Assembly (NCBI GenBank): GCA_949358305.1 | Contig: OX442322.1 | Span: 9,300,001-9,364,000 of the forward strand | Reading direction: 5' to 3' | From: Strigamia acuminata | Lineage: Eukaryota > Arthropoda > Chilopoda > Geophilomorpha > Linotaeniidae | Length of the DNA: 64,000 nt | Shown here: positions 29,301 to 51,015 of the stretch, piece by piece | Layout of the letters: the number at the start of each line of letters is the position of its first letter | Position numbering within the stretch: the first letter of the stretch is position 1 | The notes under the pieces: generated by a model | The model's database searches: none | The model's input: only the letters and a program-made list of their open reading frames with translations | Told to the model about the DNA's origin: nothing | Translations under genes and position numbers: made by a program

Positions 29301-30379
29301 TGATCACTGGATGATGTGGAATGTTATATATCCCTTTCTTTAGGAACCGTTCTTCAGTTGGAACTTCCTCAGCGTGGTTTTCTTCAATGTACTGCCACAT
29401 TGAGTCGTCATATCGCTTCTTATAATCGTCATTTGAGTCGATTCTCTTCAATGTGTTGGCTAATTGGTTAAGTGCGAGCTCCCAGTTTGAGTCCAAGTCA
29501 GTTTCTTGTCCATTAAAAGGCAGCATCACCTCGTATCTTCCGTCATCGAGACGTTTTGTCGTGGCTTCAAATCGATCTCTTGTGAAATCGGATTCTTTTT
29601 CACCAGCATTAATCCCAATTGCCTCTAAATTCCAAAGTTTGTCCAATTGTTCATGGATTTCTATGTTGCAAGTATTACAACATGAAGTCAAATCAGCTTC
29701 ATCTTCGAATAAATCCGTATTTCCGGCTGCTCCGATAAGCACCCATCCAAATAACGTATTTATGAGTCCAAGATCGTCGTTGATTTTCTTTTTGCCATCT
29801 TTAATGACTTTCCACCAAGCATCAACTCCCAAAAGAATGTCTATTTGAGATGTCTTGGCTGGCAGATCTTCGGCAAGTTCAAGATTCAGCTTCTTCACCT
29901 TTTCTATTACCGATGCATTCAAAATGCCCTGCACTTTCGGCAAATTTTCCACTGAAAGCATTGATAATTTGAAGTTTTGTGCGTCATTTTTGCTTTGAAG
30001 AGTAACGTTGTATACGTCGTAATCAGTGGCAGCAGGCATAGAATCGTTGAACCGTTGTGTGGTCGCAGAAATACTGCCGCACTTCTTCAGTTTTAGTCGG
30101 TTCACCAGTTCAGTTGTAATGAATGACCGATGGCTACCCGGGTCAATCATGCCTCGGATGTGGTGTGAACCTCCAGATTTGGTTTTGAGGTCAGCAACAA
30201 AAATCATAAGTTGAAGAGAAGTGGATATCGCGCACGAGACGTGTGTGGTCACTTGCGACTCCTTGGGTTTCTCTGTCGGACTTGGAGAATTGTTCACCTC
30301 AGACTTCTTACAAATGGTTGAATGATGTCTTCCGCCACAATGCTTGCAGGAAAACTTCACTTTGCAGTCACCAACGCGA
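26365..30379 (-). pseudogene. BEL-T gag 3' end and pol (protease, RT, RNase H, integrase)
   Basis: This is the downstream piece of the broken BEL-T Gag-Pol, about 1338 codons, without internal stops. It opens in the second CCHC knuckle (VGDC), then has a third knuckle, the aspartic protease motif DPGSHRSFI, the RT catalytic YMDD, an RNase H domain starting near FCDAS, and a BEL-type integrase with HHCC zinc finger and DDE residues (GIDHLG, FSDNSKTF, GGAWERL). The start of the reading frame is lost because BEL-S is inserted at codon GHR|VGD; a downstream methionine could in principle restart it. Relative to BEL-S it has a few substitutions, none in the catalytic motifs listed. I call it disrupted rather than functional. 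Confidence 0.88.
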
Positions 30380-31852
30380 TGTTGCAAACAACGTGGAATA
30401 ATTTAGAAACTACTTTTATTGCCAATTTGTGTCTGAATAAATGTTTCCAAAGTGTGTTTTATTTTGCATAACATTTCAGTTTTTATTTACAGGATTTTTG
30501 CATTATTAAAATGTTTTTAGTGCTTTCAGATACTGATGTTTGATGAAATGTGATATTCCATTGTTTATTGCATTTATTTCTAGTGTTTATTGCGTGATTT
30601 TGTGTTACTTTATTCATTTTCTATCAATTTGTGTGATTTCGGGTGAAATTTGGTGCATTTGTCGTTAAACAGTTCACTAGTGTTATCGACGTGACGTCAT
30701 ATTTCAAGTTCTAGTTCGGTTTTTGTTCAAACTTCTAACCTTCCGTTTGGACGGAATTTTGATGGTTAGAATTGTTTTTGACATTGTTTTAGACTAATTT
30801 GGGGGTGATCTGTTGATTCGTGCACTCTAATTTCGTCCCGGAACAGCCGTTTTTCTGCTACGAGCGATCGTGACGGACCCCGCATGTGCGTTGCCGTCCA
30901 AGATCGTTTCGTTCGGTTTGCGGTTGATTTCAAGTGTTCTTTCATTAAAAAGTGTCTTGTTTTGCGGGAAATTACATTCCCTGAACTTATTTACTTATTT
31001 CAAAGTGTTTACATAAGTTATTTCTTGTGTTGAAATTCAAACCTTGTGTTTTGCCGCCAATGTAGAGTTTACCGGACGCCATGTTGGATTTTGCCGATGA
31101 TTTGTAAATCTTTCATGTCGCTTTGTTTTTATATCTCAATTGGTGTTAGTACTATTTAGTTTTAATGTATTTCAATGCAAAATCTTTACTTATTTGGTTT
31201 TGTGTGTGACTTTGAATTCAAACTTGATGATTATGTCATTTTGCTTGTCTTTGATTGGTTAGGCCCAATTGTCTGCCTAGCGATCACTGTTTTCGCTGTT
31301 TTCTCAGTGTTTTGATTAACGAATTTTGTTGTTACGATAGACTTTATTATTCCTGAGTTTTTTGTGCTCATTTTGAGCTATTACACATTATTTTTAATAC
31401 ATTTCTCGTAATTTGTTGTCTTTGCTTGAAATTGCATTTCCTCCGTTTCCGTGGCAACGGAGTATTTTCTTTATTGTACTTTGACGACAATTGGCTTGTT
31501 GCGTGCCTTTTGATTGATAATGTGTAATTATTGAGTTGCCATTTTATATTTGATTAAAATAGTCGTGTTAATGTTAACTCTTGTATTTTCTGCTTTTGAC
31601 CCATTTCCAATGTGTCCTGAGTAGAGAACCATTTTTCCCAGACTGGCCAATGGATCAGCAAACACTTTGGATACCATGCAAAAGTGTTTCCAACAGTTAA
31701 ACCTTCATGTAACAGGAGATTTTGAGGCGAATCAAGTGCATTTCCACACGGTACACGTACGAATTTCACTATACGATCGTTTGAGTTTGTTGGCGGGAGT
31801 TTCGAATCGCCACATCTCAGTTCTTCTCTGTTCCTGTTGACTGACCGCAACA
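30380..31852 (+). repeat. BEL-S 5' LTR, 1473 bp
   Basis: Starts TGTTGCAAACAACG and ends CTGACCGCAACA, giving terminal TGTTGC/GCAACA. It contains a CRE-like TGACGTCA (30692-30699) and a GATCGTGACGG...CCGTCCAAGATC inverted block (30864-30906). That block is also conserved in BEL-U, suggesting the core regulatory region. Confidence 0.95.
30692..30699 (+). promoter_or_regulatory. CRE-like palindrome in the BEL-S 5' LTR
   Basis: Perfect TGACGTCA, repeated in the 3' LTR at 38386-38393 and in the BEL-T LTRs at 25987-25994 and 48534-48541. Confidence 0.45.
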
Positions 31853-31867
31853 TCGAATAAGAATTTT

Positions 31868-31881
31868 TGGTGCACGTGACC
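31868..31881 (+). other. BEL-S primer-binding site
   Basis: TGGTGCACGTGACC, 16 bases after the LTR. It differs at two or three positions from the Z and U version. Confidence 0.65.
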
Positions 31882-32762
31882 ATGGATTTCGTCTGCTTCT
31901 TGTGGGTTTTTTCCGGTTCATCATTTGATACGTTCAACCGTGCGTCTGGTGCGATTGACGGAAATTACGTCTGTGAGTCGTCGTCTGCTAGAATGGTCGT
32001 CGTTCAACGTGGCAACAGCCACAACGGGGATTTATTTGGCGTCGATCACGAACATTTCTGTGCAAGCAACGAGATTCTTCGGTCGACATCTTGGATTACA
32101 CAACGCGCTGTGCTGGAAAGCCGATTTGCCCCTGAAATAATTGCTTATTCTTGTGTTTTGCATTCAGTGCTTGTATTTCTAAGATTTTGGTTGCATGGGG
32201 GTATTGTATTGGGTATTTCAAAGCTGTTTTTGCTGTTTCCTAAGCTAGTTTTGAGGGAAAATTCACTGAAAGTGTATTTTATTGTGAATTTTTCAAGTGC
32301 TTTCTTGATTTTTGTGCATGCATCTCCATATAACTGGCTTAACCAGGGGAGATTTAGATTTTTTGGAGTTAGAAACTGTTCAGTCTCTCATTGCAAGAGC
32401 TGTCAGTTATTCTCGTGAATCTGATAGTGATTTTCTGGCTAGATTCGTTCCGTACGAACAGCAGAAATAATTCAAACTTGTGTAGGACTTTTTGAGTCAC
32501 GTTTTTAATACGTGATCAAGGTCGCTCGTTTGTTTTAGCATCCTTGATTGCTAAAACACTCGATATTCTTGTGTATTTTCAAGGTTTTTTGTCGTTTGGG
32601 CAAGAAAACTTTGAAAAATTCTGTTCTTTTAAAGTGAATGATTGTGAATTTTATTCTTTTCAAGTATAAAGTTTAAGTTATATTCTTTTTAAGTTTAAAG
32701 CGAAGTGTTTTGTTGTTCAAAATATTATCTTCTGTTTCATATTTTACAGCCGTGAATTTGAG
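31882..32762 (+). other. BEL-S leader, no gene seen
   Basis: About 0.9 kb between PBS and gag. It has a variant leader box (ACACAACGCGCTGTGC at 32098-32113). A pyrimidine-rich TATTTTACAG at 32745-32754, ten bases before the gag ATG, could be a splice acceptor. A 183-codon frame (31867-32418) is not recognised; it is present in part in BEL-T. Confidence 0.6.
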
Positions 32763-35700
32763 ATGGAGAGAGATAGAGAAACAGAAACTTCCGAACGCGA
32801 TTTACTCACTGTGGAGCAAATTGAAATACTAGAGACCAGGTGGGAAGCACAACTTTCATCTCTCAACGACTTGCTGTCTTTGTCGGAGAAGACGAGCGAT
32901 CCAGGAGAGTTAGAAGCGCTTCTGCTTACTGCAAATCTGAAAGAGACACGCGTTGTAAATGGCCTGAACGAGCTTCAAGTCTACTGTGAGCACGCGTTTT
33001 ACCTTGAGAGTGTCGAGAAACTGGAATCATCACAAACGAGAGTGGAACTTCTCCGAAGAAGGTGGGAGGTTTCAAAGCGGTCTCTTCCAACCCTTGGAGG
33101 AAGACTCAACATGTCTACAGTTTCCGGTGCAAATACATCCCTGAATACTTCGACTTCTTTCCGCAAGAATTCCAAGTTGCCCAAACTTGAATCTGTAAAG
33201 TTTGACGGGGAGATAATCAAATACAAGACGTTTAAGAGCAACTTTGAAACTTCTGTTCATAATGACCCAGATCTGAGCAGTGTTGAAAAGTTGCAATACC
33301 TTCAAACTATGTGTACAGGTGAGGCTGCGGCTTTGATTTCCACCTTTCCTTTGATCGAGGAATCCTATGACTTGGCACGGGAAGAACTTGATCGTAACTA
33401 TGGCGATGAGGATGCGCAACAGACGGCTCTCATCCAATCCATTCGAGACTTGAAGACTGTTTCAAGCATATACCCGACAAAGGTGTTGAAAGCAAATTTG
33501 ACGAAAATTTCTTCAACAATACGACTTCTAGAGCAACTGAAGATTCCTGTACGGACATCTGGTGCATTTCTGATGCCGGACATTCTTAGCAAGTTTCCTG
33601 CTCCAATGACTTTGCGTTTTTACCAAGTCCATGGACTGTCTTGCAAGAACATTTTGACTTTGCTTGACTTTTTTCAAAAGGAAGTAGCTATGGCAGAACG
33701 CACTGAAGCTGTTTCTCCATCTGAAAAAGCAAAGAAGGAAAAGTCTGAAGTTGAAAAGGCTAAAGTTAAAGGATCCATGACGACTTGCACCGCGACGCAA
33801 GACTCAAAATCGTCTTCAAGCTCCAAAGTGAAGACAGAGTCGAGACAAGAGAACAAGTCTGCGAATTCCAAGGCACTCAAGTGCATTTTTTGTCAAGAAG
33901 ACCATTTGAGCGGTTCTTGCAAAAAGGAGTTCGAAATCAATGCAAAGATTGAATTGATAAAGAAAAACAGACTTTGCTTTAATTGTTTTCGAACAGGTCA
34001 TCGCGTTGGTGACTGCAAAGTGAAGTTTTCCTGCAAGCATTGTGGCGGAAGACACCATTCAACCATTTGTAAGAAGTCTGAGGTGAACAATTCTCCAAGT
34101 CCGACAGAGAAACCCAAGGAGTCGCAAGTGACCACACACGTCTCGTGCGCGATATCCACTTCTCTTCAACTTATGATTTTTGTTGCTGACCTCAAAACCA
34201 AATCTGGAGGTTCACACCACATCAGAGGCATGATTGACCCGGGTAGCCATCGGTCATTCATTACAACTGAACTGGTGAACCGACTAAAACTGAAGAAGTG
34301 CGGCAGTATTTCTGCGACCACACAACGGTTCAACGATTCTATGCCTGCTGCCACTGATTACGACGTATACAACGTTACTCTTCAAAGCAAGAATGACGCA
34401 CAAAACTTCAAATTATCAATGCTTTCAGTGGAAAATTTGCCGAAAGTGCAGGGCATTTTGAATGCATCGGTAATAGAAAAGGTGAAGAAGCTTAATCTTG
34501 AACTTGCCGAAGATCTGCCAGCCAAGACATCTCAAATAGACATTCTTTTAGGAGTTGATGCCTGGTGGAAAGTCATTAAAGATGGCAAAAAGAAAATCAA
34601 CGACGATCTTGGACTCATAAATACGTTATTTGGATGGGTGCTTATCGGAGCAGCCGGAAATACGGATTTATTCGAAGATGAAGCTGATTTGACTTCATGT
34701 TGTAATACTTGCAACATAGAAATCCATGAACAATTGGACAAACTTTGGAATTTAGAGGCAATTGGGATTAATGCTGGTGAAAAAGAATCCGATTTCACAA
34801 GAGATCGATTTGAAGCCACGACAAAACGTCTCGATGACGGAAGATACGAGGTGATGCTGCCTTTTAATGGACAAGAAACTGACTTGGACTCAAACTGGGA
34901 GCTCGCACTTAACCAATTAGCCAACACATTGAAGAGAATCGACTCAAATGACGATTATAAGAAGCGATATGACGACTCAATGTGGCAATACATTGAAGAA
35001 AACCACGCTGAGGAAGTTCCAACTGAAGAACGGTTCCTAAAGAAAGGGACATATAACATTCCACATCATCCAGTGATCAAAGAGGACCGGGAAACAACGA
35101 AATTCAGAGTCGTATTCAATGCGTCGTCTGCGAAAAAAGGAAAACGCTCATTAAATGACTGCCTTTTTCCTGGACCATCTTTGAATCCAGATTTGATATT
35201 GGTGATGGTCAGATTCAGATTGTATTGCATTCCAATCATTGCTGACATTAAACAAGCATTCCTCCAAGTAATGATAAACCCCACACATAGGAACTTTCTG
35301 CGTTTTTTGTGGGTCTCGAGGCAATATTTCAAGAACCCCTATTCGTGGAGAAATTTGTGGAATAATATTATGATTTTGAGGATGATAGTCGTACCATTTG
35401 GAGTTATTTCCTCTCCTTTTCTCCTGTGCGCAACAATTCGGAAACAAGCTGATCAATACAAGGAGACACATCCGAAAGAAGTTGATGCACTGGACGCCGG
35501 GATATACATGGATGATTTAACTTCTGGAGGTGATCACACGACAGACACAACAAAGCATTGTGAAGAATTAAAAATGATTTTGGATGACGGGAAACTCCCA
35601 CTTGTTAAATGGGCGACACCCAATGAAAAGGTTTTCAATGACATCAAAGAAAAGGGATTTCACATGAGAAGTGACGAATTCTGTGAACAAGGAGTTATAA

Positions 35701-38015
35701 AAATGCTTGGAATCTTATGGGACACGCAAGAAGACGTCCTCATTTTCAGGATTCCACAAATGGACATTATTCCGAACACAAGACGTGAAGTTCTCTCTTT
35801 GGTAGCCTCTATTTTCGACCCGATGGGACTCATTTCTCCAGTCGTTTTGAAAATGAGACTCCTTCTTCAAGACATTTGTCTACGTACAAAGAACTGGGAC
35901 GGAAGAATTTCGGACTCAGAAAAGCAAGAGATTGACGAATGGAGTCGAGACATCCAGAAATTAAAAGACTATAAGGTACCTCGATGGTTAGAAACCTATT
36001 CTAATGAAGAGTTGAGTATTGAAGTTTTCTGTGATGCCAGCACTAAAGCCTTTGGATGTGCAATTTTCATCGTCAACAACAAAGGAAAAAGAACTTTGCT
36101 ACTCAGCAAATGTAGACTAGCCCCTGCAAAAAAGATTACCTTGCCTAGACTTGAATTAACTGCTGCGGTCGTTGGTGTACGGATGTGTCAGTATTTGACA
36201 AATAACTTTCTGCCAGGTTATCCAATCAAAACCATTCAATATTTTTCTGATTCCACCATAACTTTGGCTTGGATAAATTCGAAGAAAAATGAGTGGAAGC
36301 CTTATGTTTCTAACCGCGTTCAGGAAATTGTTTCATCGTCTGACGCAAGCCAATGGTCACATATTCCGACAGAGTTCAATCCTGCAGATCTACTTACACG
36401 ACCACACGATGCAAAAACATTAATGACAAATAAACTTTGGTGGAACGGCGTGGACGTTTCTAAAATCGAAAAAGTCGAGGTCGTGCAAGAAAAACTACCC
36501 GAAGAAGAAAAAAGAATTGTGGTTATGAATGTTCAAGTCAAAGAGACATTTATAAGCAAATTTTTCAAAAGATATCGCAACTTCAACCGTCTAGTTAGAG
36601 TATTTTCGTACATTTTGCGCTGGAAATCTCATCGTTTTCGCGGCGAAGATCTCGCGCAACGCGAAATGGAATCCAGTCAAATTAGGATTCTTCAATTTTC
36701 ACAAGAAATCTACTTTCGAGAAGAGATCGAAGCTGTGAGAAACAAGACTGAAGTTGAGAGATACTCCCCTTTGAAGAATTTCGAATATTTCTTAGATGAG
36801 GATGGACTTTTACGTTTGCGCAGCAGACTGAGATTGTCTTTGCTTTCATTTGACGAAAAATACCCGATTCTTTTGCATAACGAAAGTTGGGTAACTAGAC
36901 TAATTATTCGCAAGACTCATCTTGATCTCATGCATGGAGATTTGAGTGAAACACTTTACCGAATTCGTGAGAAATTTTGGGTTCTCCGAGGACGCAGGAC
37001 CATTCAAACTGTGATAAGAGAATGTTCCGTTTGCAGAAGGACTAAACTTGCAAGAAATAATCCGTCTACTGGAGAATTACCGAAAGAAAGAGTAACCCCA
37101 GCAGCTCCTTTTCAACACACCGGAATCGATCATTTGGGACCTATTTTTGTGGGAAAGGACAAAAAACGATTGAAGAAAACATACATTTTATTTTTCACTT
37201 GTATGGTTACACGAAGTTTACATCTCGAAGTGTCCGAAGATTTATCCACTGAGAAATTCTTATTGGCATTCAGACGATTTTGTGCTCGTTACGGTTGTCC
37301 AGCAAAAGTCTTCTCGGACAACAGTAAAACCTTTGAAAAAGGAAGTACACAAATTCAGTCATGGGGAAAACTGATTGGCCGTTCGGACATAAAAACATTT
37401 CTGTCTGAGAAAAGGATTGTATGGACATTTATTCCTCCGCTCTCACCGTGGATGGGAGGAGCTTGGGAGAGACTAGTCCGTTCAGTAAAGGATAAATTGC
37501 GGAAAACTTTATTGAGACACACTGTGGATTTAGAAAATTTACAAACCTTGGTTCTTGAGATCAGCTCCGTGTTGAATTCACGACCTTTGTCGTATGTACA
37601 CGAAAATATAGACGGCGGCAGAATCCTTTCACCTAAAAACTTTTTAACGGGAGGTATGCCGAAATACATGATCAACAAGACCTTGAATGCAATCAAGAAA
37701 AGTGACCTTCGAAAACTCGACAAGAAAAGAAGACAGTTCATTTGGGATTTTTGGAGTATATGGAAACACAGTTACTTGATGCAGTTAAGAAACTTTTACG
37801 AGGTCAAAGGAGATAAGTCTTTTCAAAACCCCAAAATTGACCAGATTGTTCTTCTTGAAAAGATGGGAACCAACCCTTACTTTTGGCCTCTTGCCAGGAT
37901 AAAACAAGTGTTTCCTGGCGATGATGGACTAATTCGCATCGTTAGTGTTGTGCTTCCCGATGGAAGAGAGTTGCGTCGTTCTGTAAGGCATATTAGAGCC
38001 CTTGAACTTGATTGA
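32763..38015 (+). CDS. BEL/Pao Gag-Pol polyprotein
   Basis: A single 1750-residue ORF. The N-terminal 110 residues look coiled-coil-like. Residues about 130-290 are the DUF1759-type gag region (KLPKLESVKFDGE). Three zinc knuckles follow at about 373-440 (CIFCQEDHLSGSC, CFNCFRTGHRVGDC, CKHCGGRHHSTIC). The aspartic protease motif DPGSHRSFI is near 493, the RT YMDD near 915, and RNase H begins near FCDAS at 1088. The integrase zinc finger (HLDLMH...CSVC) is at about 1385-1422, and the catalytic D, D, E are near 1455, 1519 and 1567. There is no gag stop or frameshift, as is usual in BEL/Pao. The start is the first ATG after the leader and is shared with BEL-T. All catalytic motifs are present, so it could be active. 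No envelope ORF follows. Confidence 0.95.
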   Translation: MERDRETETSERDLLTVEQIEILETRWEAQLSSLNDLLSLSEKTSDPGELEALLLTANLKETRVVNGLNELQVYCEHAFYLESVEKLESSQTRVELLRRRWEVSKRSLPTLGGRLNMSTVSGANTSLNTSTSFRKNSKLPKLESVKFDGEIIKYKTFKSNFETSVHNDPDLSSVEKLQYLQTMCTGEAAALISTFPLIEESYDLAREELDRNYGDEDAQQTALIQSIRDLKTVSSIYPTKVLKANLTKISSTIRLLEQLKIPVRTSGAFLMPDILSKFPAPMTLRFYQVHGLSCKNILTLLDFFQKEVAMAERTEAVSPSEKAKKEKSEVEKAKVKGSMTTCTATQDSKSSSSSKVKTESRQENKSANSKALKCIFCQEDHLSGSCKKEFEINAKIELIKKNRLCFNCFRTGHRVGDCKVKFSCKHCGGRHHSTICKKSEVNNSPSPTEKPKESQVTTHVSCAISTSLQLMIFVADLKTKSGGSHHIRGMIDPGSHRSFITTELVNRLKLKKCGSISATTQRFNDSMPAATDYDVYNVTLQSKNDAQNFKLSMLSVENLPKVQGILNASVIEKVKKLNLELAEDLPAKTSQIDILLGVDAWWKVIKDGKKKINDDLGLINTLFGWVLIGAAGNTDLFEDEADLTSCCNTCNIEIHEQLDKLWNLEAIGINAGEKESDFTRDRFEATTKRLDDGRYEVMLPFNGQETDLDSNWELALNQLANTLKRIDSNDDYKKRYDDSMWQYIEENHAEEVPTEERFLKKGTYNIPHHPVIKEDRETTKFRVVFNASSAKKGKRSLNDCLFPGPSLNPDLILVMVRFRLYCIPIIADIKQAFLQVMINPTHRNFLRFLWVSRQYFKNPYSWRNLWNNIMILRMIVVPFGVISSPFLLCATIRKQADQYKETHPKEVDALDAGIYMDDLTSGGDHTTDTTKHCEELKMILDDGKLPLVKWATPNEKVFNDIKEKGFHMRSDEFCEQGVIKMLGILWDTQEDVLIFRIPQMDIIPNTRREVLSLVASIFDPMGLISPVVLKMRLLLQDICLRTKNWDGRISDSEKQEIDEWSRDIQKLKDYKVPRWLETYSNEELSIEVFCDASTKAFGCAIFIVNNKGKRTLLLSKCRLAPAKKITLPRLELTAAVVGVRMCQYLTNNFLPGYPIKTIQYFSDSTITLAWINSKKNEWKPYVSNRVQEIVSSSDASQWSHIPTEFNPADLLTRPHDAKTLMTNKLWWNGVDVSKIEKVEVVQEKLPEEEKRIVVMNVQVKETFISKFFKRYRNFNRLVRVFSYILRWKSHRFRGEDLAQREMESSQIRILQFSQEIYFREEIEAVRNKTEVERYSPLKNFEYFLDEDGLLRLRSRLRLSLLSFDEKYPILLHNESWVTRLIIRKTHLDLMHGDLSETLYRIREKFWVLRGRRTIQTVIRECSVCRRTKLARNNPSTGELPKERVTPAAPFQHTGIDHLGPIFVGKDKKRLKKTYILFFTCMVTRSLHLEVSEDLSTEKFLLAFRRFCARYGCPAKVFSDNSKTFEKGSTQIQSWGKLIGRSDIKTFLSEKRIVWTFIPPLSPWMGGAWERLVRSVKDKLRKTLLRHTVDLENLQTLVLEISSVLNSRPLSYVHENIDGGRILSPKNFLTGGMPKYMINKTLNAIKKSDLRKLDKKRRQFIWDFWSIWKHSYLMQLRNFYEVKGDKSFQNPKIDQIVLLEKMGTNPYFWPLARIKQVFPGDDGLIRIVSVVLPDGRELRRSVRHIRALELD

Positions 38016-38073
38016 TGTGTGTTTTGCAGACTTCTCTCATCTCTCTTCTCTCTCTTTCTCGCTGGCAATTCGT
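38016..38073 (+). other. Pyrimidine tract before the BEL-S 3' LTR
   Basis: A CT-rich run (CTTCTCTCATCTCTCTTC...) ending GCTGGCAATTCGT. The usual purine-rich priming tract is not seen here on the coding strand. Similar tracts precede the 3' LTRs of L, Z and TKE. Confidence 0.6.
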
Positions 38074-39546
38074 TGTTGCAAACAACGTGGAATAATTTAG
38101 AAACTACTTTTATTGCCAATTTGTGTCTGAATAAATGTTTCCAAAGTGTGTTTTATTTTGCATAACATTTCAGTTTTTATTTACAGGATTTTTGCATTAT
38201 TAAAATGTTTTTAGTGCTTTCAGATACTGATGTTTGATGAAATGTGATATTCCATTGTTTATTGCATTTATTTCTAGTGTTTATTGCGTGATTTTGTGTT
38301 ACTTTATTCATTTTCTATCAATTTGTGTGATTTCGGGTGAAATTTGGTGCATTTGTCGTTAAACAGTTCACTAGTGTTATCGACGTGACGTCATATTTCA
38401 AGTTCTAGTTCGGTTTTTGTTCAAACTTCTAACCTTCCGTTTGGACGGAATTTTGATGGTTAGAATTGTTTTTGACATTGTTTTAGACTAATTTGGGGGT
38501 GATCTGTTGATTCGTGCACTCTAATTTCGTCCCGGAACAGCCGTTTTTCTGCTACGAGCGATCGTGACGGACCCCGCATGTGCGTTGCCGTCCAAGATCG
38601 TTTCGTTCGGTTTGCGGTTGATTTCAAGTGTTCTTTCATTAAAAAGTGTCTTGTTTTGCGGGAAATTACATTCCCTGAACTTATTTACTTATTTCAAAGT
38701 GTTTACATAAGTTATTTCTTGTGTTGAAATTCAAACCTTGTGTTTTGCCGCCAATGTAGAGTTTACCGGACGCCATGTTGGATTTTGCCGATGATTTGTA
38801 AATCTTTCATGTCGCTTTGTTTTTATATCTCAATTGGTGTTAGTACTATTTAGTTTTAATGTATTTCAATGCAAAATCTTTACTTATTTGGTTTTGTGTG
38901 TGACTTTGAATTCAAACTTGATGATTATGTCATTTTGCTTGTCTTTGATTGGTTAGGCCCAATTGTCTGCCTAGCGATCACTGTTTTCGCTGTTTTCTCA
39001 GTGTTTTGATTAACGAATTTTGTTGTTACGATAGACTTTATTATTCCTGAGTTTTTTGTGCTCATTTTGAGCTATTACACATTATTTTTAATACATTTCT
39101 CGTAATTTGTTGTCTTTGCTTGAAATTGCATTTCCTCCGTTTCCGTGGCAACGGAGTATTTTCTTTATTGTACTTTGACGACAATTGGCTTGTTGCGTGC
39201 CTTTTGATTGATAATGTGTAATTATTGAGTTGCCATTTTATATTTGATTAAAATAGTCGTGTTAATGTTAACTCTTGTATTTTCTGCTTTTGACCCATTT
39301 CCAATGTGTCCTGAGTAGAGAACCATTTTTCCCAGACTGGCCAATGGATCAGCAAACACTTTGGATACCATGCAAAAGTGTTTCCAACAGTTAAACCTTC
39401 ATGTAACAGGAGATTTTGAGGCGAATCAAGTGCATTTCCACACGGTACACGTACGAATTTCACTATACGATCGTTTGAGTTTGTTGGCGGGAGTTTCGAA
39501 TCGCCACATCTCAGTTCTTCTCTGTTCCTGTTGACTGACCGCAACA
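38074..39546 (+). repeat. BEL-S 3' LTR, 1473 bp
   Basis: Same length and, as far as I can read, the same sequence as 30380-31852. It is followed by GCGA. Confidence 0.95.
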
Positions 39547-39550
39547 GCGA

Positions 39551-40252
39551 TGACCTGTTCGAAAACAATTAAAGCAAAGTCTGTTTTTCTTTATCAATTC
39601 AATCTTTGCATTGATTTCAAACTCCTTTTTGCAAGAACCGCTCAAATGGTCTTCTTGACAAAAAATGCACTTGAGTGCCTTGGAATTCGCAGACTTGTTC
39701 TCTTGTCTCGACTCTGTCTTCACTTTGGAGCTTGAAGACGATTTTGAGTCTTGCGTCGCGGTGCAAGTCGTCATGGATCCTTTAACTTTAGCCTTTTCAA
39801 CTTCAGACTTTTCCTTCTTTGCTTTTTCAGATGGAGAAACAGCTTCAGTGCGTTCTGCCATAGCTACTTCCTTTTGAAAAAAGTCAAGCAAAGTCAAAAT
39901 GTTCTTGCAAGACAGTCCATGGACTTGGTAAAAACGCAAAGTCATTGGAGCAGGAAACTTGCTAAGAATGTCCGGCATCAGAAATGCACCAGATGTCCGT
40001 ACAGGAATCTTCAGTTGCTCTAGAAGTCGTATTGTTGAAGAAATTTTCGTCAAATTTGCTTTCAACACCTTTGTCGGGTATATGCTTGAAACAGTCTTCA
40101 AGTCTCGAATGGATTGGATGAGAGCCGTCTGTTGCGCATCCTCATCGCCATAGTTACGATCAAGTTCTTCCCGTGCCAAGTCATAGGATTCCTCGATCAA
40201 AGGAAAGGTGGAAATCAAAGCCGCAGCCTCACCTGTACACATAGTTTGAAGG
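39551..40252 (-). pseudogene. BEL-T gag, middle fragment
   Basis: About 234 codons of gag between the two insertions. It starts inside the DUF1759-like region (QTMCTGEAAAL) and ends in the second knuckle (CFNCFRTGHR) where BEL-S enters. It continues from 45940 on one side and into 30379 on the other. No stops are present. Confidence 0.9.
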
Positions 40253-40967
40253 TGTTGCAACTCGCCACTGCCGTGATGCGACGAGTTGTAACGCGGTGGG
40301 GAATTCTTGGCAAATTTCCCATAGGCCTATACTGAGAGGAGAAATGAGTTGACTTGAGTTTCTGCACTGGATCTTGTGGGGAGCTGCTCCAGGGAGTTTG
40401 GGGTTAAATTTCCCTACTCACACATGTTGGATGTTGAATAAAATAAACCTTTGTGTAGAAAAATCCAGATAATGCTTTTAATCATTTCAAAACATTAACA
40501 TGGAGGCAAATTCAACTTAACTACATCTAATTCTTCATAACAAGAGTGTAACAACTTCATAACAACAACAATTCTATAGCAACAACAAACTCATGAGGCA
40601 CCTAGTGACTAAATTCATAAATAACATAAGTTAAAGCTTGCATTGTGCCTCATAATAGAGATAAAATCAACTTAAAATTAACAGAAATCATTGGAAAACA
40701 AGACTAAAAATTCCTAAACCTTGACCTTGTCATTCTAAGAGATAAAATACCTAACAAACATTGTCTTTACTGAAAATTGGCACACAAAAAAGACATGTAA
40801 AATTCCTATTACAACAGAAAAAGATTAGATATTTGCTAAATAAATAATACAATTATAAGACCAAAATTAGTAACTCTTCTTTACATTTTCGAACACATAA
40901 AATCAAACTACTATCAAATTGACGAGCAGTTGTGGTCTCTCTTTCCTCCTTTCTGTTGCTCGAAACA
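40253..40967 (-). repeat. TKE 3' LTR, 715 bp
   Basis: In element orientation it starts TGTTTCGAGCAACAG and ends GAGTTGCAACA. The start resembles the TGTTGCGAGC of the L and Z families. Confidence 0.93.
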
Positions 40968-41041
40968 GAGATTGCCGCCGAAAAGAAAAGAAGGTGAAGA
41001 AGAACCTCTTAGCAATCTGAAAACTTCTCATCCACCTAGGA

Positions 41042-44000
41042 TCAGCTCCCTAATGACTCCTTAAGGTAAGCGCAATTTTTTTTGCGGATCAAACTGGCCA
41101 CCCATGGAGGTAATCTTCGATTCAAAATCGCTAAACTTAAATGTGCCGCTTCATTAATTAGCTTTCTCTTGACTTCTATAGAATTGATTGATTTCTGAAA
41201 ACAGGTACGACACGTTGGCTTGTATCTCTCTTCTCCTCCCACAACCTGAACTTGCGTTTCACCCGATATTCGTTTGGTGAACGACGCTTGGTTTCCACAA
41301 AAGTGGCATTTGGCATGAAGTTTGACAATAGTTTCCACTAGTGGAATGAGATTAGATACTGCCTTGAATTCCTGTCTCTTAAAATCACCATTTAAAGCGG
41401 CAATTATTACATTCTTTCCTTCGTTCGCCATTTTGTCGGAAAACGAATCGATGTCTCCGAAAAATTGCCCTTCGTCGATACCTATCGTCTTGACCGACTC
41501 CGCAATTTTCTTGATTTCCTGTAACGACGCGACCCGAACCGCTGGACGTCGTTGTCCGGTGTGGCTAACCATTTCATCTTTACTATATCTAACGTCTGTC
41601 AAATGCTTAACAAGCAGGCAAGAATTTTCTTCTTCATTTCGGATTACATTAAGTAAAGCAGTAGTTTTTCCAGAAAACATTGGGCCAATTACTAAATGTA
41701 TATTTCCCGTGGCCTTTGTGACTGCATTTGATCTTCTGTGCGAATTGGTGAGTTTCTTGCGACTCCATTTCAATATCTTCCTCCATTTACTTAAACCCTT
41801 TTCTTCATCTTTTTTGAAATTTTTCGGAAATTCTCCTTTCTTTTCCGTAGACTCCAGTGTGTCAGGACTCTGAGAAATCGCCATCTTGCCCGACCTTATC
41901 CCTTTAAACGTCCGCTTTCCATCCATTTCCAATTCGATGGGGACGTCAGGATGCCGTACCTCCAGCTCGCTAGAGCGGCTCGCGGCAAAACGAGAAGCGA
42001 TGACGCCTTTTGTTCGTACTCCACCCTTTTCGCTTTTCTCGTCGGGCATTGATGTGGAATTCGCCTGTCCAAACCCGCCTTTGTCCTTTTTTGAAGTGTT
42101 GAAAGTCATCTTCTTTCCAGAATCGATCGCCATACACGATACATCTCCCAGTGAGATATCGTCTTTGTAGATGGAAGGCTCTTTTGAGTTAATTCGTCCG
42201 TTTAAAATCCATCCAAAAACTGTTTTCATCATTCCTAATTCTGGACTAATTCTCTTCGTTCCCGCTTGAATTATTTTCCACCATGCTCCGCTTCCGATCA
42301 AGACATCTACCTCATCCGACACGGAGGGATGTGGTTCTGCCATCTCAAGATTAAACGACTTGATTTGTTGCAGCGTCTGGTGATTTACCACTCCCTTTAT
42401 ATTGGGAAGTGTGTCGATATCAAGAGCAAATACAGACACTTTCTGCTTGTCGTGACGAGACTGCAACTCGAATCTAAACACGTCATGAGTTGTAGGAACT
42501 GGTTCCTTGTTCAGCAGACACTGGGTCATGGTGTGATACGTCTCAATCTTGTTTAGGTGTAATTTCTTTGCTAACCGCTTCGTAATATATGAACGATGAC
42601 TACCCGGATCGAGTAATCCACGAACTGGGATTGTTTCGCCACTCTTTCGGACGAACAATGCTGTGAAAACCATTAGCTGGACGTCACTTGAGACCGACAA
42701 CGAGACGTTGGCGGAGACGTTCTCTTCTTTGGTATCAGTTGGCTTTTCCGCATGACCTCTGTTACAAATTGAAGAATGGTGTCGACCACCGCATGATCGG
42801 CAACAAAATTTTACAGGGCAGTTACCCACTGTATGGCTTGGTCTCAGGCAATTAAAGCATAGACGTTTTCGCTTAACGATGTCGTATTTCTCCGAAACTT
42901 CCAGATTTGCGTCGCAATTATTGTTGAAATGATCTCCTTCACAGAAGGCACAGATCAATTTCCGGACTGGACCTGATTTTGGTTTGAATGATTCTTTCGT
43001 ATTGGACCCGAATGACGTATTTTGCGCAACCGCGCAAGATGACATGGTCCCTCGTAATTCTTCTTTTTGCTCTCTAGTTGCTGGTTTCTCACTCTTCTTG
43101 GTGACTTTCTGACTGGTAAATACGCTATCGTCTGATAATTCTGCTACTCTGACTTCGCTTGCTACAAATTCGAGAAATAAATTAACGTTTTCCACGTTTC
43201 CTTTGTAAATCCTATGAAATCGTCTTCCCAATTCCGGTGGAAACTTCCGCAATAATTCCGGGATTAGAAATAATCCAGTAGTCGTAACTGGGAACTTCAA
43301 CTGTTCTAATGTTCGGAAAGCACCGGTGAGGGACGTCAATAGAGATTTTACTGGCTTGATTGGGTACAAATCTTTAACTGCTTCGGCTTCACGAATTTTC
43401 CTCGCCAGAGCGTTCTTTTGGGCTACTTCTGACCCAAAAAGTCCTTCTAAACTGCTAAGTGCCATTAAATACGAATCGTTAGTAAGTGGGTACGACTTAA
43501 TCGCCACTTCAGCTTCCCCGATACAGCTTGATTTCAGGTATTGAAGTTTTTCGACGTTCGATAACTCGGCATCGGCGTCAACTGTGGTTGAAAACATATC
43601 CATGAAGCTCTTATACTCCATCGGATTCCCGTCGAATTTCTGCAATGTCAGCTTTGGAAGCTTTGTAGTCTTCCTTGAGATTATCGATGAGTTGTTCAGA
43701 AATCCAGAATTCATTAGCGTATTTCCGCCGGGATGTGCCCCAAACTTATCCTGCATCTGTTTTGAAAATTTCGTCCTTTGCTTAAGAAGATTGACCTTAG
43801 TCCTAATGTCTTCGAGACGTCTCAAACTAAGCAGGTAATCTGAACGTTCTATCTTGTCTTTAAAGACAGCGAGCTCATCAATAAGGTCACTCAACTGCGC
43901 ATCTATTGTTGCGTGGAGAGCTTCAAGCTCACCCCCGTCGAGAACGTTTGCAGATGTCAAGAGCAGATCCTCTGCTCCTTGGGCCTTGGCTTGCCATTGT

Positions 44001-44050
44001 GTTTCTTTCTCTTCCGCTGCTTCCGTGGTCAAACCAGCCGCAGTTGCCAT
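41042..44050 (-). CDS. Gag-protease-thymidine kinase fusion protein
   Basis: 1002 residues in one frame. The N-terminus is coiled-coil-like. About 130-290 is BEL gag (KLPKLTLQKFDGNPMEYKSF). Three zinc knuckles lie at about 363-425 (CAFCEGDHFNNNC, CFNCLRPSHTVGNC, CRSCGGRHHSSIC). A retropepsin-like domain has LLDPGSHRSYI near 478 and ends about 610 (VFGWILNG). A basic linker of about 170 residues follows. Residues about 783-955 are a type II (TK1-like) thymidine kinase: P-loop GPMFSGKTT near 789, VSHTG, the DEGQFF motif with the expected catalytic Glu near 858, and zinc-binding CHFC and CRTC near 914 and 946 around the lasso region. TK1 phosphorylates thymidine with ATP in the salvage route to dTTP. 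All hallmark residues I know are present, so activity is plausible. The last 45 residues are unassigned. The usual RT, RNase H and integrase are missing. The protease could release TK; that is inference. Confidence 0.93.
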   Translation of the reverse strand: MATAAGLTTEAAEEKETQWQAKAQGAEDLLLTSANVLDGGELEALHATIDAQLSDLIDELAVFKDKIERSDYLLSLRRLEDIRTKVNLLKQRTKFSKQMQDKFGAHPGGNTLMNSGFLNNSSIISRKTTKLPKLTLQKFDGNPMEYKSFMDMFSTTVDADAELSNVEKLQYLKSSCIGEAEVAIKSYPLTNDSYLMALSSLEGLFGSEVAQKNALARKIREAEAVKDLYPIKPVKSLLTSLTGAFRTLEQLKFPVTTTGLFLIPELLRKFPPELGRRFHRIYKGNVENVNLFLEFVASEVRVAELSDDSVFTSQKVTKKSEKPATREQKEELRGTMSSCAVAQNTSFGSNTKESFKPKSGPVRKLICAFCEGDHFNNNCDANLEVSEKYDIVKRKRLCFNCLRPSHTVGNCPVKFCCRSCGGRHHSSICNRGHAEKPTDTKEENVSANVSLSVSSDVQLMVFTALFVRKSGETIPVRGLLDPGSHRSYITKRLAKKLHLNKIETYHTMTQCLLNKEPVPTTHDVFRFELQSRHDKQKVSVFALDIDTLPNIKGVVNHQTLQQIKSFNLEMAEPHPSVSDEVDVLIGSGAWWKIIQAGTKRISPELGMMKTVFGWILNGRINSKEPSIYKDDISLGDVSCMAIDSGKKMTFNTSKKDKGGFGQANSTSMPDEKSEKGGVRTKGVIASRFAASRSSELEVRHPDVPIELEMDGKRTFKGIRSGKMAISQSPDTLESTEKKGEFPKNFKKDEEKGLSKWRKILKWSRKKLTNSHRRSNAVTKATGNIHLVIGPMFSGKTTALLNVIRNEEENSCLLVKHLTDVRYSKDEMVSHTGQRRPAVRVASLQEIKKIAESVKTIGIDEGQFFGDIDSFSDKMANEGKNVIIAALNGDFKRQEFKAVSNLIPLVETIVKLHAKCHFCGNQASFTKRISGETQVQVVGGEERYKPTCRTCFQKSINSIEVKRKLINEAAHLSLAILNRRLPPWVASLIRKKNCAYLKESLGS

Positions 44051-44379
44051 TTATTCTCGAGAAAGAGAGAATGAGAATAAAAATTCTATTCAACAACTCA
44101 ATAACTGCGAATTAAATTCCCACGAATATTCTCCGAACTTCACAGACTCTTACTTATACTTGCTTAACGTTAATTCAAATGCGGTGTGCAAATGAAAAAC
44201 GACCTCGAAATAAAATGCTAAACTCAACTCCGGAATACTACAGACAAATTGACTTAACACACTATACGTAATACACTGGGACGGAATTATTGACCGCACA
44301 AATAAACTTATCCGCATAAATATCTTGATAATTCCCCCAAAATGCACTTAGTTCGAAATTAATAATTAATATCTAACCG

Positions 44380-44600
44380 CACAACCGAGATAAATAGTTA
44401 TCTTTTACAATAACACTGCACAAAGGAGATAAATAGTTATATTTTACAATAACCCCGCACAAAGAGATAAATAGTTATATTTTACAATAACCCCGCACAA
44501 AAAGAGATAATAGCTATAGTTTATAATAGCGCTGCACAAAAGAGATAATTAGCTATCATATACAATAGCTCCGCACTTAAGAGATAATAACTTGATGTTT
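44380..44600 (-). repeat. Tandem repeat in the TKE leader
   Basis: About five units of 40-48 bp with core GATAAATAGTTATATTTTAC (plus sense), each ending near CCGCAC or CTGCAC. The TAGTTAT...ATAAC parts of a unit can pair. The units drift in sequence towards 44600. Confidence 0.8.
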
Positions 44601-44778
44601 AAAATTATTGACATAAAAAACCCCTTTTAAACTCCCCAAACACAGCTCGAAATTGGCAGAAACTTCCTTGAAAAATCAGATAAAGAATTAATTTAAATAA
44701 ATATAATTCTTAAATTCTAACAGCAATTGAGTTAAAATTAATCTTGTTCTTTATCATCAGCAGATGAACTTGAAGATT

Positions 44779-44794
44779 GACATTGCGTTGTGTT
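44779..44794 (-). promoter_or_regulatory. Conserved leader box in TKE
   Basis: Minus strand reads AAACACAACGCAATGT, about 430 bp inside the 5' LTR. Confidence 0.55.
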
Positions 44795-45199
44795 TCTCAA
44801 ATTGTTGACCAGGAAATCGCTTGCTTGTCTCCTTATGTTGACCGCCACAGTAGAAAGACTCCGAACTCGTTACACTTGACATAAAATCCACTGACGAATC
44901 AACTCCCTGACGCCTGCGAAGGACGACACAGCACAAACACACTTCTGTCGCAATTGGCGACAATAATCCAGTGGAAATAAATCGAAAAACGCGTCGCCAC
45001 ACACTTCACACCACGAAAATCGGCACCCCACACTGCTTACTGCGAACTAGATGCCACACACTGCCTCACTGTGAAGTCGGGAACACACACGCAAATCACC
45101 GTGAAATTGACGTCACACACCTGGCTAAAAATGCAATGACGTGCACTGAAATCCACTGGAAGAACTGGACAAAAATCCTGGTTGGCAACAACAAAATCC

Positions 45200-45215
45200 T
45201 TGGGTCACGGTACCA
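45200..45215 (-). other. TKE primer-binding site
   Basis: Minus strand reads TGGTACCGTGACCCAA, four bases inside the 5' LTR. It is close to the Z2 and L2 version. Confidence 0.7.
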
Positions 45216-45219
45216 AAAA

Positions 45220-45934
45220 TGTTGCAACTCGCCACTGCCGTGATGCGACGAGTTGTAACGCGGTGGGGAATTCTTGGCAAATTTCCCATAGGCCTATACT
45301 GAGAGGAGAAATGAGTTGACTTGAGTTTCTGCACTGGATCTTGTGGGGAGCTGCTCCAGGGAGTTTGGGGTTAAATTTCCCTACTCACACATGTTGGATG
45401 TTGAATAAAATAAACCTTTGTGTAGAAAAATCCAGATAATGCTTTTAATCATTTCAAAACATTAACATGGAGGCAAATTCAACTTAACTACATCTAATTC
45501 TTCATAACAAGAGTGTAACAACTTCATAACAACAACAATTCTATAGCAACAACAAACTCATGAGGCACCTAGTGACTAAATTCATAAATAACATAAGTTA
45601 AAGCTTGCATTGTGCCTCATAATAGAGATAAAATCAACTTAAAATTAACAGAAATCATTGGAAAACAAGACTAAAAATTCCTAAACCTTGACCTTGTCAT
45701 TCTAAGAGATAAAATACCTAACAAACATTGTCTTTACTGAAAATTGGCACACAAAAAAGACATGTAAAATTCCTATTACAACAGAAAAAGATTAGATATT
45801 TGCTAAATAAATAATACAATTATAAGACCAAAATTAGTAACTCTTCTTTACATTTTCGAACACATAAAATCAAACTACTATCAAATTGACGAGCAGTTGT
45901 GGTCTCTCTTTCCTCCTTTCTGTTGCTCGAAACA
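45220..45934 (-). repeat. TKE 5' LTR, 715 bp
   Basis: Same length as the 3' LTR and identical by eye. Confidence 0.93.
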
Positions 45935-45939
45935 GAAGG

Positions 45940-46475
45940 TATTGCAACTTTTCAACACTGCTCAGATCTGGGTCATTATGAACAGAAGTTTCAAAGTTGC
46001 TCTTAAACGTCTTGTATTTGATTATCTCCCCGTCAAACTTTACAGATTCAAGTTTGGGCAACTTGGAATTCTTGCGGAAAGAAGTCGAAGTATTCAGGAA
46101 TGTATTTGCACCGGAAACTGTAGACATGTTGAGTCTTCCTCCAAGGGTTGGAAGAGACCGCTTTGAAACCTCCCACCTTCTTCGGAGAAGTTCCACTCTC
46201 GTTTGTGATGATTCCAGTTTCTCGACACTCTCAAGGTAAAACGCGTGCTCACAGTAGACTTGAAGCTCGTTCAGGCCATTTACAACGCGTGTCTCTTTCA
46301 GATTCGCAGTAAGCAGAAGCGCTTCTAACTCTCCTGGATCGCTCGTCTTCTCCGACAAAGACAGCAAGTCGTTGAGAGATGAAAGTTGTGCTTCCCACCT
46401 GGTCTCTAGTATTTCAATTTGCTCCACAGTGAGTAAATCGCGTTCGGAAGTTTCTGTATCTCTATCTCTCTCCAT
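45940..46475 (-). pseudogene. BEL-T gag, N-terminal fragment
   Basis: About 178 codons from the gag ATG (46475) to the TKE insertion. It is nearly identical to BEL-S residues 1-178 and includes the start of the DUF1759-like region. Translation would run about 20 codons into TKE LTR and stop. Confidence 0.9.
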
Positions 46476-47384
46476 CTCAAATTCACGGCTGTAAATTATG
46501 AAACAGAAGATAATATTTTGAACAACAAAACACTTCGCTTTAAACTTAAAAAGAATATAACTTAAACTTTATACTTGAAAAGAATAAAATTCACAATCAT
46601 TCACTTTAAAAGAACAGAATTTTTCAAAGTTTTCTTGCCCAAACGACAAAAAACCTTGAAAATACACAAGAATATCGAGTGTTTTAGCAATCAAGGATGC
46701 CAAAACAAACGAGCGACCTTGATCACGTATTAAAAACGTGACTCAAAAAGTCCTGCACAAGTTTGAATTATTTCTGCGGTTCGTACGGAACGAATCACGC
46801 CAGAAAATCACTATCAGATTCACGACAATAACTGACAGCCCTTGCAATGAGAGACTGAACAGTTTCTAACTCCAAAAAATCTAAATCTCCCCTGGTTAAG
46901 CCAGTTATATGGAGATGCATGCACAAAATCAAGAAATCACTTGAAAAATTCACAATACAATACGCTTTCAGTGAATTTTCCCTCAAAACTAGCTTAGGAA
47001 AAAGCAAAAACAGCTTTGAAATACCCAATACAATACCCTCATGCAACCAAAATCTTAGAAATACAAGCACTGAATGCAAAACACAAGAATAAGCAATTAT
47101 TTCAGGGGCAAATCGGCTTTCCAGCACAGCGCGTTGTGTAATCCAAGATGTCGACCGAAGAATCTCGTTGCTTGCACAGAAATGTTCGTGATCGACGCCA
47201 AATAAATCCCCGTTGTGGCTGTTGCCACGTTGAACGACGACCATTCTAGCAGACGACGACTCACAGACGTAATTTCCGTCAATCGCACCAGACGCACGGT
47301 TGAACGTATCAAATGATGAACCGGAAAAAACCCACAAGAAGCAGACGAAATCCATGGTCACGTGCACCAAAAATTCTTATTCGA
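46476..47384 (-). other. BEL-T leader
   Basis: Counterpart of the BEL-S leader, with the variant box at 47123-47140 and a PBS (TGGTGCACGTGACCATGG on the minus strand) at about 47352-47369. Confidence 0.75.
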
Positions 47385-48853
47385 TGTTGCGGTCAGTCAA
47401 CAGGAACAGAGAAGAACTGAGATGTGGCGATTCGAAACTCCCGCCAACAAACTCAAACGATCGTATAGTGAAATTCGTACGTGTACCGTGTGGAAATGCA
47501 CTTGATTCGTCTCAAAATCTCCTGTTACATGAAGGTTTAACTGTTGGAAACACTTTTGCATGGTATCCAAGTGCTTGCTGATCCATTGGCCAGTCTGGGA
47601 AAAATGGTTTCCTACTCAGGACACATTGGAAATGGGTCAAAAGCAGAAAATACAAGAGTTAACATTAACACGACTATTTTAATCAAATATAAAATGGCAA
47701 CTCAATAATTACACATTATCAATCAAAAGGCACGCAACAAGCCAATTGTCGGCAATTTACAATAAAGAAATACCCCGTTGCCACGGAAACGGAGGAAATG
47801 CAATTTCAAGCAAAGACAACAAATTACGAGAAATGTATTAAAAATAATGTGTAATAGCTCAAAATGAGCACAAAAAACTCAGGAATAATAAAGTCTATCG
47901 TAACAACAAAATTCGTTAATCAAAACAATGAGAAAACAGCGAAAACAGTGATTGCTAGGCAGATAATTGGGCCTAACCAATCAAAGACAAGCAAAATGAC
48001 ATAATCATCAAGTTTGAATTCAAAGTCACACACAAAACCAAATAAGTAAAGATTTTGCATTGAAATACATTAAAACTAAATAGTACTAACACCAATTGAG
48101 ATATAAAAACAAAGCAACATGAAAGATTTACAAATCATCGGCAAAATCCAACATGGCGTCCGGTAAACTCTACATTGGCGGCAAAACACAAGGTTTGAAT
48201 TTCAACACAAGAAATAACTTATGTAAACACTTTGAAATAAGTAAATAAGTTCAGGAAATGTAATTCCCGCAAACAAGACACGTTTTAATGAAAGAACACT
48301 TGAAATCAACCGCAAACCGAACGAAACGATCTTGGACGGCAACGCACATGCGGGGTCCGTCACGATCGCTCGTAGCAGAAAAACGGCTGTTCCGGGACGA
48401 AATTAGAGTGCACGAATCAACAGATCACCCCCAAATTAGTCTAAAACAATGTCAAAAACAATTCTAACCATCAAAATTCCGTCCAAACGGAAGGTTAGAA
48501 GTTTGAACAAAAACCGAACTAGAACTTGAAATATGACGTCACGTCAATAACACTAGTGAACTGTTTAACGACAAATGCACCAAATTTCACCCGAAATCAC
48601 ACAAATTGATAGAAAATGAATAAAGTAACACAAAATCACGCAATAAACACTAGAAATAAATGCAATAAACAATGGAATATCACATTTCATCAAACATCAG
48701 TATCTGAAAGCACTAAAAACATTTTAATAATGCAAAAATCCTGTAAATAAAAACTGAAATGTTATGCAAAATAAAACACACTTTGGAAACATTTATTCAG
48801 ACACAAATTGGCAATAAAAGTAGTTTCTAAATTATTCCACGTTGTTTGCAACA
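47385..48853 (-). repeat. BEL-T 5' LTR, 1469 bp
   Basis: Nearly identical to the BEL-S LTRs. The right end, GTTTGCAACA at 48853, joins satellite starting GCAC. Confidence 0.93.
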
Positions 48854-50798: not shown

Positions 50799-51015
50799 GG
50801 GAGCTGTTTTTTGGTACCGTGATTCCAGGATTTCGTGCACGTGTGTACAGCGCGCATGGAAAAGAGGTCATTTGGATGTTCAGCAAGTGATTCAAGTGGG
50901 TTGGTGCGTGCCAGTTGGTTCGTTTGTACGGCTGGTTCCGTGAGCGGCCGGCATCAAGTGCGCACGCCAGAGAGTCACGTGAGAGCGGCCATTGACGTCC
51001 TGAGTCTGCCAAGTC

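Follow-up and report, generated by a model that had tools for sequence, protein, structure and literature searches.

A BEL/Pao-type retroelement frame joining Gag and protease to a thymidine kinase in Strigamia acuminata

How does a retroelement come to carry a complete thymidine kinase (TK) in the same reading frame as its Gag, and what could such an enzyme do for it? The question is raised by a locus of the centipede Strigamia acuminata, within a stretch of 64,000 nucleotides that is here called the window (NCBI GenBank assembly GCA_949358305.1, contig OX442322.1, positions 9,300,001 to 9,364,000 of the forward strand). A frame of 1002 codons runs without interruption from ATG to TGA, from 44050 to 41042 on the minus strand, and comprises, in this order, a BEL/Pao Gag, three zinc knuckles, a protease, a spacer, a complete TK1-type TK and a tail; the element and its family are called F1. 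The original prediction, made from the sequence alone, had placed a single Gag-protease-TK frame at 41042..44050. These coordinates are exact, the strand being minus, and the features that it named (BEL-type gag, three zinc knuckles, DPGS protease, P-loop, DEGQF and zinc cysteines) are all found by Pfam and motif reading. Pfam assigns residues 139–282 to DUF1759, the BEL/Pao gag family (E 2.8e-15), and residues 782–951 to the TK family PF00265 (E 3.4e-54). The latter match covers model positions 1–176 of 176 and scores 183.8 bits, against a curated cut-off of 20.6, as is required of a full type II TK domain. The NCBIfam equivalog model for bacterial TK gives the F1 kinase 146 bits, under its 183-bit cut-off. 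The zinc knuckles start at residues 367, 398 and 417, the protease motif LDPGSHRS at residue 480, and the kinase motifs at residues 789 (P-loop, GPMFSGKTT), 859 (DEGQFF), and 915 and 947 (the two CxxC pairs).

The frame lies between direct repeats of 717 bp that are 100% identical to each other, and reading of their ends defines long terminal repeats (LTRs) of 715 bp each, with TG...CA ends on the minus strand and CCTTC on both outer sides. These ends, the target duplication and a primer site recognized by its position and resemblance identify F1 as an LTR retrotransposon. An empty counterpart of the insertion site, with a single CCTTC, is present near 33300 in element A, a BEL element of the same window; because the gag of element A is uninterrupted at that site, the insertion of the TK element is seen to have hit the gag of a further BEL element, B. 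The insertion of the window copy is probably recent. Neither Rfam nor tRNA scanning gave a match in the window.

The first part of the F1 protein is that of a BEL element. Residues 7–618 are 38% identical to the Gag-Pol of element A over 620 columns, which together with DUF1759 establishes a BEL-type Gag and protease, and the likeness ends at the boundary between protease and reverse transcriptase (RT). Past the protease, element A continues with RT, RNase H and integrase, whereas F1 has a spacer of 158 residues for which Pfam gave no match, followed by the TK and by a tail of 49 residues. Neither RT nor integrase was found between the F1 LTRs, where the RT-integrase part of element A gave a best tblastn E of 1.9, as against E 0 for the control stretch. 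Since the RT, RNase H and integrase of a complete BEL/Pao element are absent, F1 is a non-autonomous BEL/Pao derivative, and therefore another element must move it. The original prediction had proposed an element that raises deoxythymidine triphosphate (dTTP) locally, perhaps in the capsid, for reverse transcription in resting or germline cells, a role that would be in keeping with the anatomy. That F1 is a multi-copy LTR element whose complete TK is under selection stands, but it cannot reverse-transcribe itself. Mobilization by BEL machinery is supported by the primer-site region, LTR ends and pre-LTR motif of F1, which resemble those of elements A and B and of the family F2 described below; the count of the pre-LTR motif used a pattern built from the same sites and is descriptive only. 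The tracts before the 3′ LTR at 38053–38069, 26311–26327 and 40971–40987 are pyrimidine-rich on the coding strand, that of F1 being TTCTTTTCGGCGGCAAT, at a place where a polypurine tract would be expected. Among the matches listed, the closest relatives with frames of more than 1700 amino acids (aa) are 44–48% identical to F1 in the protease.

The host genome comprises 237.5 Mb in 157 contigs. In a piece of its mitochondrial COX1, AGA is read as Ser, ATA as Met, TGA as Trp and AAA as Lys, in keeping with the invertebrate mitochondrial code, and the look of the protein suggests an arthropod. The genome contains many copies of the F1 frame. A search with the full protein, in which the best 46 of 1357 candidates were scored, gave at least 47 matches. 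Of these, 37 are open over the full length (995 or 1002 aa), are 98–100% identical and lie on 10 contigs; the others comprise one frame with an internal stop, one full-length F2 copy, and partial or diverged copies. A single-copy or assembly artefact, either of which would have spoken against the original prediction, is ruled out by these 37 or more frames, and the Gag-TK junction recurs at many loci and in F2. When the TK alone was used as query, each of the 150 candidates scored, the best of 208, was a match. They fall into families with the kinase in BEL frames (F1, F1b and F2) and families with the kinase outside BEL frames (F3, F4 and F5). The TK of F1b is 73–82% identical to that of F1, and the TKs of F2 mostly 54–56%. 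F2 is a sister family (TK 55% identical) whose frames measure 1009 or 1013 aa, with the kinase at the same place; two copies (L211 and L212) show the same Gag-protease-spacer-TK-tail layout between LTRs of 1358 and 1361 bp that are 100% identical within each copy. The DNA of F1 and F2 can be aligned only in short stretches.

In 20 F1 loci the compared parts of the 5′ and 3′ LTRs are 100% identical in 18 cases, 99.7% in L166 and 95.8% in L169; L162 and L169 continue into a tandem copy. The sequences that follow the 3′ LTR in these loci are of 13 different kinds, and loci with a common flank (L170/171, L172/173 and L174–177) may be segmental duplicates. None of the best 150 TK places was seen to have the kinase inside a complete Gag-Pol frame: no frame exceeds 1022 aa, save for two on contig C130 of 1118 and 1999 aa, the longer of which (L213) spans 4500 N bases. 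Locus L221, with a frame of 1044 aa, is a truncated Gag-RT element, and L222 carries a Copia-like RT on reading by eye.

A further family, F6, came from a search with the protease segment (best 150 of 1032 candidates scored); its frames have 892 aa and its protease is 48–50% identical to that of F1. L220, the one F6 copy read, has after its spacer what remains of a P-loop, KGPMFLGKKEK, and then a tail that resembles the F1 and F2 tails; DEGQ and the zinc pairs were not found in it. A search with 32 residues of the F6 tail, in which all 126 candidates were scored, matched 41 F1 loci (35 with frames of 995 or 1002 aa), 51 F2 loci (47 with frames of 1009 or 1013 aa), and F6 itself with 28 exact matches (19 with 892-aa frames) and one diverged; three of the other five resemble F1b or diverged F2, and two, with frames of 36 and 64 aa, are unclassified. 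The tail marks F1, F2 and F6 as members of a single clade, and the most economical interpretation is that the ancestor of this clade had a TK, which then decayed in F6.

Is the kinase maintained by selection? The ratio of nonsynonymous to synonymous substitution rates (dN/dS) was estimated with NG86 between F1 copy L161 and F1b copy L218, with dS between 0.56 and 1.3. It is 0.126 for TK (dS about 1), 0.085 for Gag residues 250–450, 0.073 for the protease and 0.278 for the tail, as against 0.397 for the adjoining spacer, so that neutral decay of the TK, which the original prediction had named as fatal to its claim, fails for this pair. YN00 gives dN 0.14 and dS 0.86 for TK, and dN 0.276 and dS 0.306 for the spacer, a ratio above that of NG86. 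Between F1 and F2 the proportion of nonsynonymous differences is 0.29 in TK, near that of Gag (0.28) and below that of the spacer (0.45). Among 30 F1 copies, which were picked by TK score and thereby lean towards the result, the variants comprise 6 nonsynonymous and 11 synonymous changes, where 3.46:1 is expected under a uniform mutation model (p 0.0002; 213 codons, including part of the tail). TK thus appears to be under purifying selection in the F1 lineage.

These values bear on the view that the kinase is an unused passenger, brought in when a host mRNA was transduced at random and took the place of pol, and then spread by hitch-hiking. Such replacement of pol has precedents in acute transforming retroviruses and in maize Bs1, and the TK of F1 sits exactly at the former position of pol. 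Host gene capture is also known from crocodilian endogenous retroviruses (ERVs), for which the available part of a study reports nectin3 and KIT ligand, and F6 spread with the kinase core lost in the copy read. A passenger is nevertheless improbable in view of the low dN/dS of TK relative to the spacer next to it, of the excess of synonymous variants among the score-picked F1 copies, and of F2, which keeps the same fusion and its catalytic motifs at 55% TK identity. The tight constraint on Gag and protease (dN/dS 0.07–0.09) exceeds what a pure parasite needs, and with the high copy numbers of F1 and F2 it could speak for a two-part element, with Gag, protease and TK on one RNA and RT and integrase on another RNA of the same family. 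No pol partner with F1 or F2 LTRs turned up, in a genome not searched by LTR query, and we consider such an arrangement very unlikely.

The F1 kinase is 44% identical to human TK1. Its structure model, based on an alignment of 22 sequences, has a mean predicted local distance difference test score (pLDDT) of 88.6, and its top match in the PDB is human TK1 (1xbt), with a root-mean-square deviation of 1.5 over 174 columns and a TM-score of 0.94 (by target length). The tail that follows is modelled as two helices. The P-loop, DEGQFF and the zinc motifs are present in 30 of the 30 top-scoring F1 copies. The KEN box sets the timing of human TK1 decay in mitosis; no KEN motif was found in residues 771–1002 of F1. 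Type II TKs are tetramers, and the domain might therefore be kept for its fold, as a tetramer-forming module on Gag that, with the helical tail, aids assembly or localization. The F6 copy that retains the tail without the catalytic core would fit this idea. However, a purely structural role does not need catalytic residues, and the P-loop (GPMYAGKTT in F2), DEGQFF with its Glu and both zinc CxxC pairs are kept in F1, F1b and F2. As F6, in addition, has lost the fold itself, retention of TK for its fold has little probability.

The origin of the kinase was addressed with a tree that includes host, viral and bacterial TKs, as the original prediction had proposed. With 51 residues of human TK1 as query, an exon of the host TK1 gene was located on contig C9; the protein of this gene, which short introns interrupt, shares 63% identity with human TK1 and 45% with the F1 TK. 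A first tree had the long-branch row L029 in the group of interest; L029, L009, L025, L047 and L048 were dropped from the second tree, which samples 28 of 80 viral and 14 of 80 bacterial loci, with human and host TK1 as the animal TK1 sequences and without poxvirus TKs. This tree has 50 rows. In it the mobile TKs, six in all (F1, F1b, F2, F3, F4 and F5), form one side of a branch (support 95/92) and adjoin host and human TK1 (99/94). The animal-plus-mobile group (100/99) excludes the sampled prokaryotic and IMG/VR TKs but for two IMG/VR rows, L001 and L002, which are placed within it on a long, weakly supported branch (82/61). Approximately unbiased (AU) topology tests reject a grouping of F1 and F2 with host TK1 alone (p-AU 0.005) and of all mobile TKs with host TK1 (p-AU 0.02), and do not reject F1 and F2 with host plus human TK1 (p-AU 0.16), all three values being weakened because the constraint groups were named after the first tree had been viewed. 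A recent capture from the TK1 of this host is ruled out by the 45% identity and the p-AU of 0.005, and capture from the sampled prokaryotic or IMG/VR TKs is disfavoured by their position outside the group. The tree and the tests together suggest that the capture was old, from an animal-type TK1 or from a virus carrying one. The F1 TK alone gave no match among viral contigs. With a human-based alignment as query, 83 relatives were found there, and no Gag was seen in the three that were checked (L001, L002 and L009).

The kinase also occurs in unlike repeats of the same genome. F5 (L214 and L215) has intact 190-aa TK frames in a repeat of more than 5 kb without visible LTRs, and none of its neighbouring frames that were tested has a Pfam family above its cut-off. 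The TK frame of F4 (L213, on C130) adjoins a stretch reading N and is 78% identical to F5; frames of 190 aa, F4 and F5 together, account for at least 42 of the 150 scored TK places. F3 (L216 and L217) has a TK frame of 221 to 239 aa and was found at five places among the best 150 of 208; L216 and L217 are 95% identical over 1561 columns and 90% over 652, and L216 carries a weak Ty3-capsid-like frame on the strand opposite to the TK. Similar TK cargo in unlike repeats recalls bdelloid retroelements, for which the available part of one article reports a common pool of open reading frames (ORFs) across elements (PMC5408684).

In the explanation that we favour, to which we assign a probability of roughly 0.7 for all its parts jointly, the window carries a recent copy of a non-autonomous BEL/Pao family in which TK replaces pol, which is moved by a helper, and in which TK raises dTTP. 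The RNA of F1 would be packaged in particles of its own Gag, or of this Gag together with the Gag of a BEL helper, and the helper would give RT and integrase in trans. The TK, which the single frame would yield one-to-one with Gag, would be freed by the protease and would phosphorylate thymidine, and probably deoxyuridine too, in or near the particle. In this way DNA synthesis could be given more dTTP at times of low host TK1, and we infer that TK may serve as a dTTP supply for reverse transcription. Retroviral dUTPase is assumed, in the part of the source available, to let replication proceed in non-dividing cells (PMC2864245).

Several points weigh against this explanation. The dTTP role would hold by analogy with retroviral dUTPase, and element A, as a candidate helper, is just 38% identical to F1 in Gag-protease. 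The selection estimate for TK comes from one diverged F1b copy (L218), and synonymous sites between F1 and F2 are saturated, which weakens it. Finally, F6 spread (28 exact tail matches) with the kinase core lost in the one copy read; TK for this reason looks helpful, not essential, to elements of the F1, F2 and F6 kind.

A wider proposal is that F1 and its relatives represent a retroelement clade with Gag, protease and TK that borrows the pol of helper BEL elements, may repay them in dTTP, and has a TK belonging to a pool of mobile TKs that is common to various unlike repeats of this genome; we put it forward tentatively, at somewhat less than an even chance. Retroelements rely on host deoxynucleotide pools, and dUTPase capture is a form of tinkering with those pools. 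If true, a selected TK in a polymerase-less element would be a second, independent solution beside dUTPase. It would then become possible to test if retrotransposition in animals is limited by dTTP, and if a non-autonomous element may act as a helper's partner rather than as a pure parasite; the presence in one genome of F1 and F2 with TK and of F6 apparently without it provides a natural comparison.

Table 1. Features of the TK element and related loci. Positions are those of the window, except for the F6 copy and the host TK1 gene.
Feature	Position	Strand	Basis or remark
Single ORF, Gag-protease-spacer-TK-tail	41042..44050	-	1002 aa; frame list and Pfam
Gag, residues 1–450	42701..44050	-	DUF1759; 38% identity to element A
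Three zinc knuckles, residues 367–429	42764–42952	-	motifs
Aspartic protease, residues 475–618	42197..42628	-	LDPGSHRS; Pfam score under curated cut-off; likeness to element A
Spacer, residues 619–776	41723..42196	-	fast-evolving; Pfam-negative
TK1-type thymidine kinase, residues 777–953	41192..41722	-	Pfam E 3.4e-54; human TK1 44%; structure model
Helical C-terminal tail, residues 954–1002	41045..41191	-	clade marker by tail search; helices in model
5′ LTR, 715 bp, TG...CA	45220..45934	-	direct repeat, ends read
3′ LTR, 715 bp	40253..40967	-	direct repeat, ends read
Target site duplication CCTTC, 5′ side	45935..45939	-	sequence reading
Target site duplication CCTTC, 3′ side	40248..40252	-	sequence reading
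Primer binding site region TTTTTGGTACCGTGACCCAAGG, directly after 5′ LTR	45198..45219	-	position and likeness to elements A and F2
Long leader, imperfect tandem repeats at about 44374–44605	44051..45197	-	repeat comparison
Motif TTCTTTTCGGCGGCAAT just before 3′ LTR	40971..40987	-	also in elements A, B and F2
Element A, BEL, 1750-aa Gag-Pol frame 32763–38015	30377..39550	+	LTRs 99.87% identical; example of possible helper type
BEL element B part, gag split by TK element	45935..48853, resuming 40262–39542	-	repeat and sequence comparison
F6 copy L220	G000:C13:8670001-8671100		892-aa Gag-protease frame; TK remnant; tail kept
Host TK1 gene, L219	G000:C9:8314501-8321500		short introns; 63% identical to human TK1

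The window has further repeats. An 8.5-kb element is present in two copies of opposite direction (6908–15446 and 49278–57849), with 1.5-kb LTRs that are 100% identical within each copy; it has no frame of 200 aa or more and must likewise be moved in trans. Tandem repeats of 140 bp at 48853–49277 and 57849–58564 border LTR elements without long frames. At 59890–61284 a 464-aa frame, which adjoins a Gypsy pol at 61641–63926, has a weak match to Ulp1 (C48) protease (E 0.048, below the cut-off) and is possibly a captured SUMO-protease-like ORF.

How does F1 compare with known systems? In the open-licence literature searched no description of a TK-bearing LTR element was found, in agreement with the original prediction, which knew of none. 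The words 'thymidine' and 'kinase' have zero occurrences in the main text, the part available, of a survey that covers 7,861 BEL/Pao elements (PMC3118150), nor do they occur in the accessible portion of the bdelloid study (PMC5408684); that of the crocodilian ERV study has no 'thymidine' and 'kinase' four times, and TK-bearing elements were not found in the accessible portions of PMC2427051 or PMC2774666. With BEL/Pao (Belpaoviridae-type) elements F1 shares the DUF1759 Gag, three zinc knuckles, DPGS protease, LTRs and a short target duplication, but it has a spacer and TK in place of RT, RNase H and integrase. The F1 kinase resembles animal and poxvirus type II TKs in its fold, P-loop, DEGQFF, zinc cysteines and 44% identity to human TK1, and differs from them in being fused to Gag, in having no KEN in residues 771–1002 and in its clade-specific helical tail. 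The plant TR-GAG elements, as presented in the available part of PMC8704663, are non-autonomous elements with a single GAG ORF, for which transposition was detected in Arabidopsis. F1 is like them in being non-autonomous, with one long Gag ORF between LTRs and no pol; in contrast to this plant class, which has no extra enzyme, it is of animal BEL type and carries a protease and a host-type enzyme. The bdelloid elements Juno, Vesta and TelKA have, in the parts of the two articles available, a dUTPase between protease and RT (PMC5408684, PMC2864245). These and other dUTPase-bearing LTR elements (fungal Gypsy elements, retroviruses) resemble F1 in that an enzyme of thymidylate metabolism has been captured into the polyprotein; their enzyme is a dUTPase and not a kinase, and the bdelloid and fungal elements, as far as these sources go, hold it in Pol with RT, whereas F1 is RT-less. 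The closest known kinds are the dUTPase-bearing LTR elements and the Gag-only non-autonomous elements, and within the literature searched the combination of Gag, protease and TK in one frame appears to be new.

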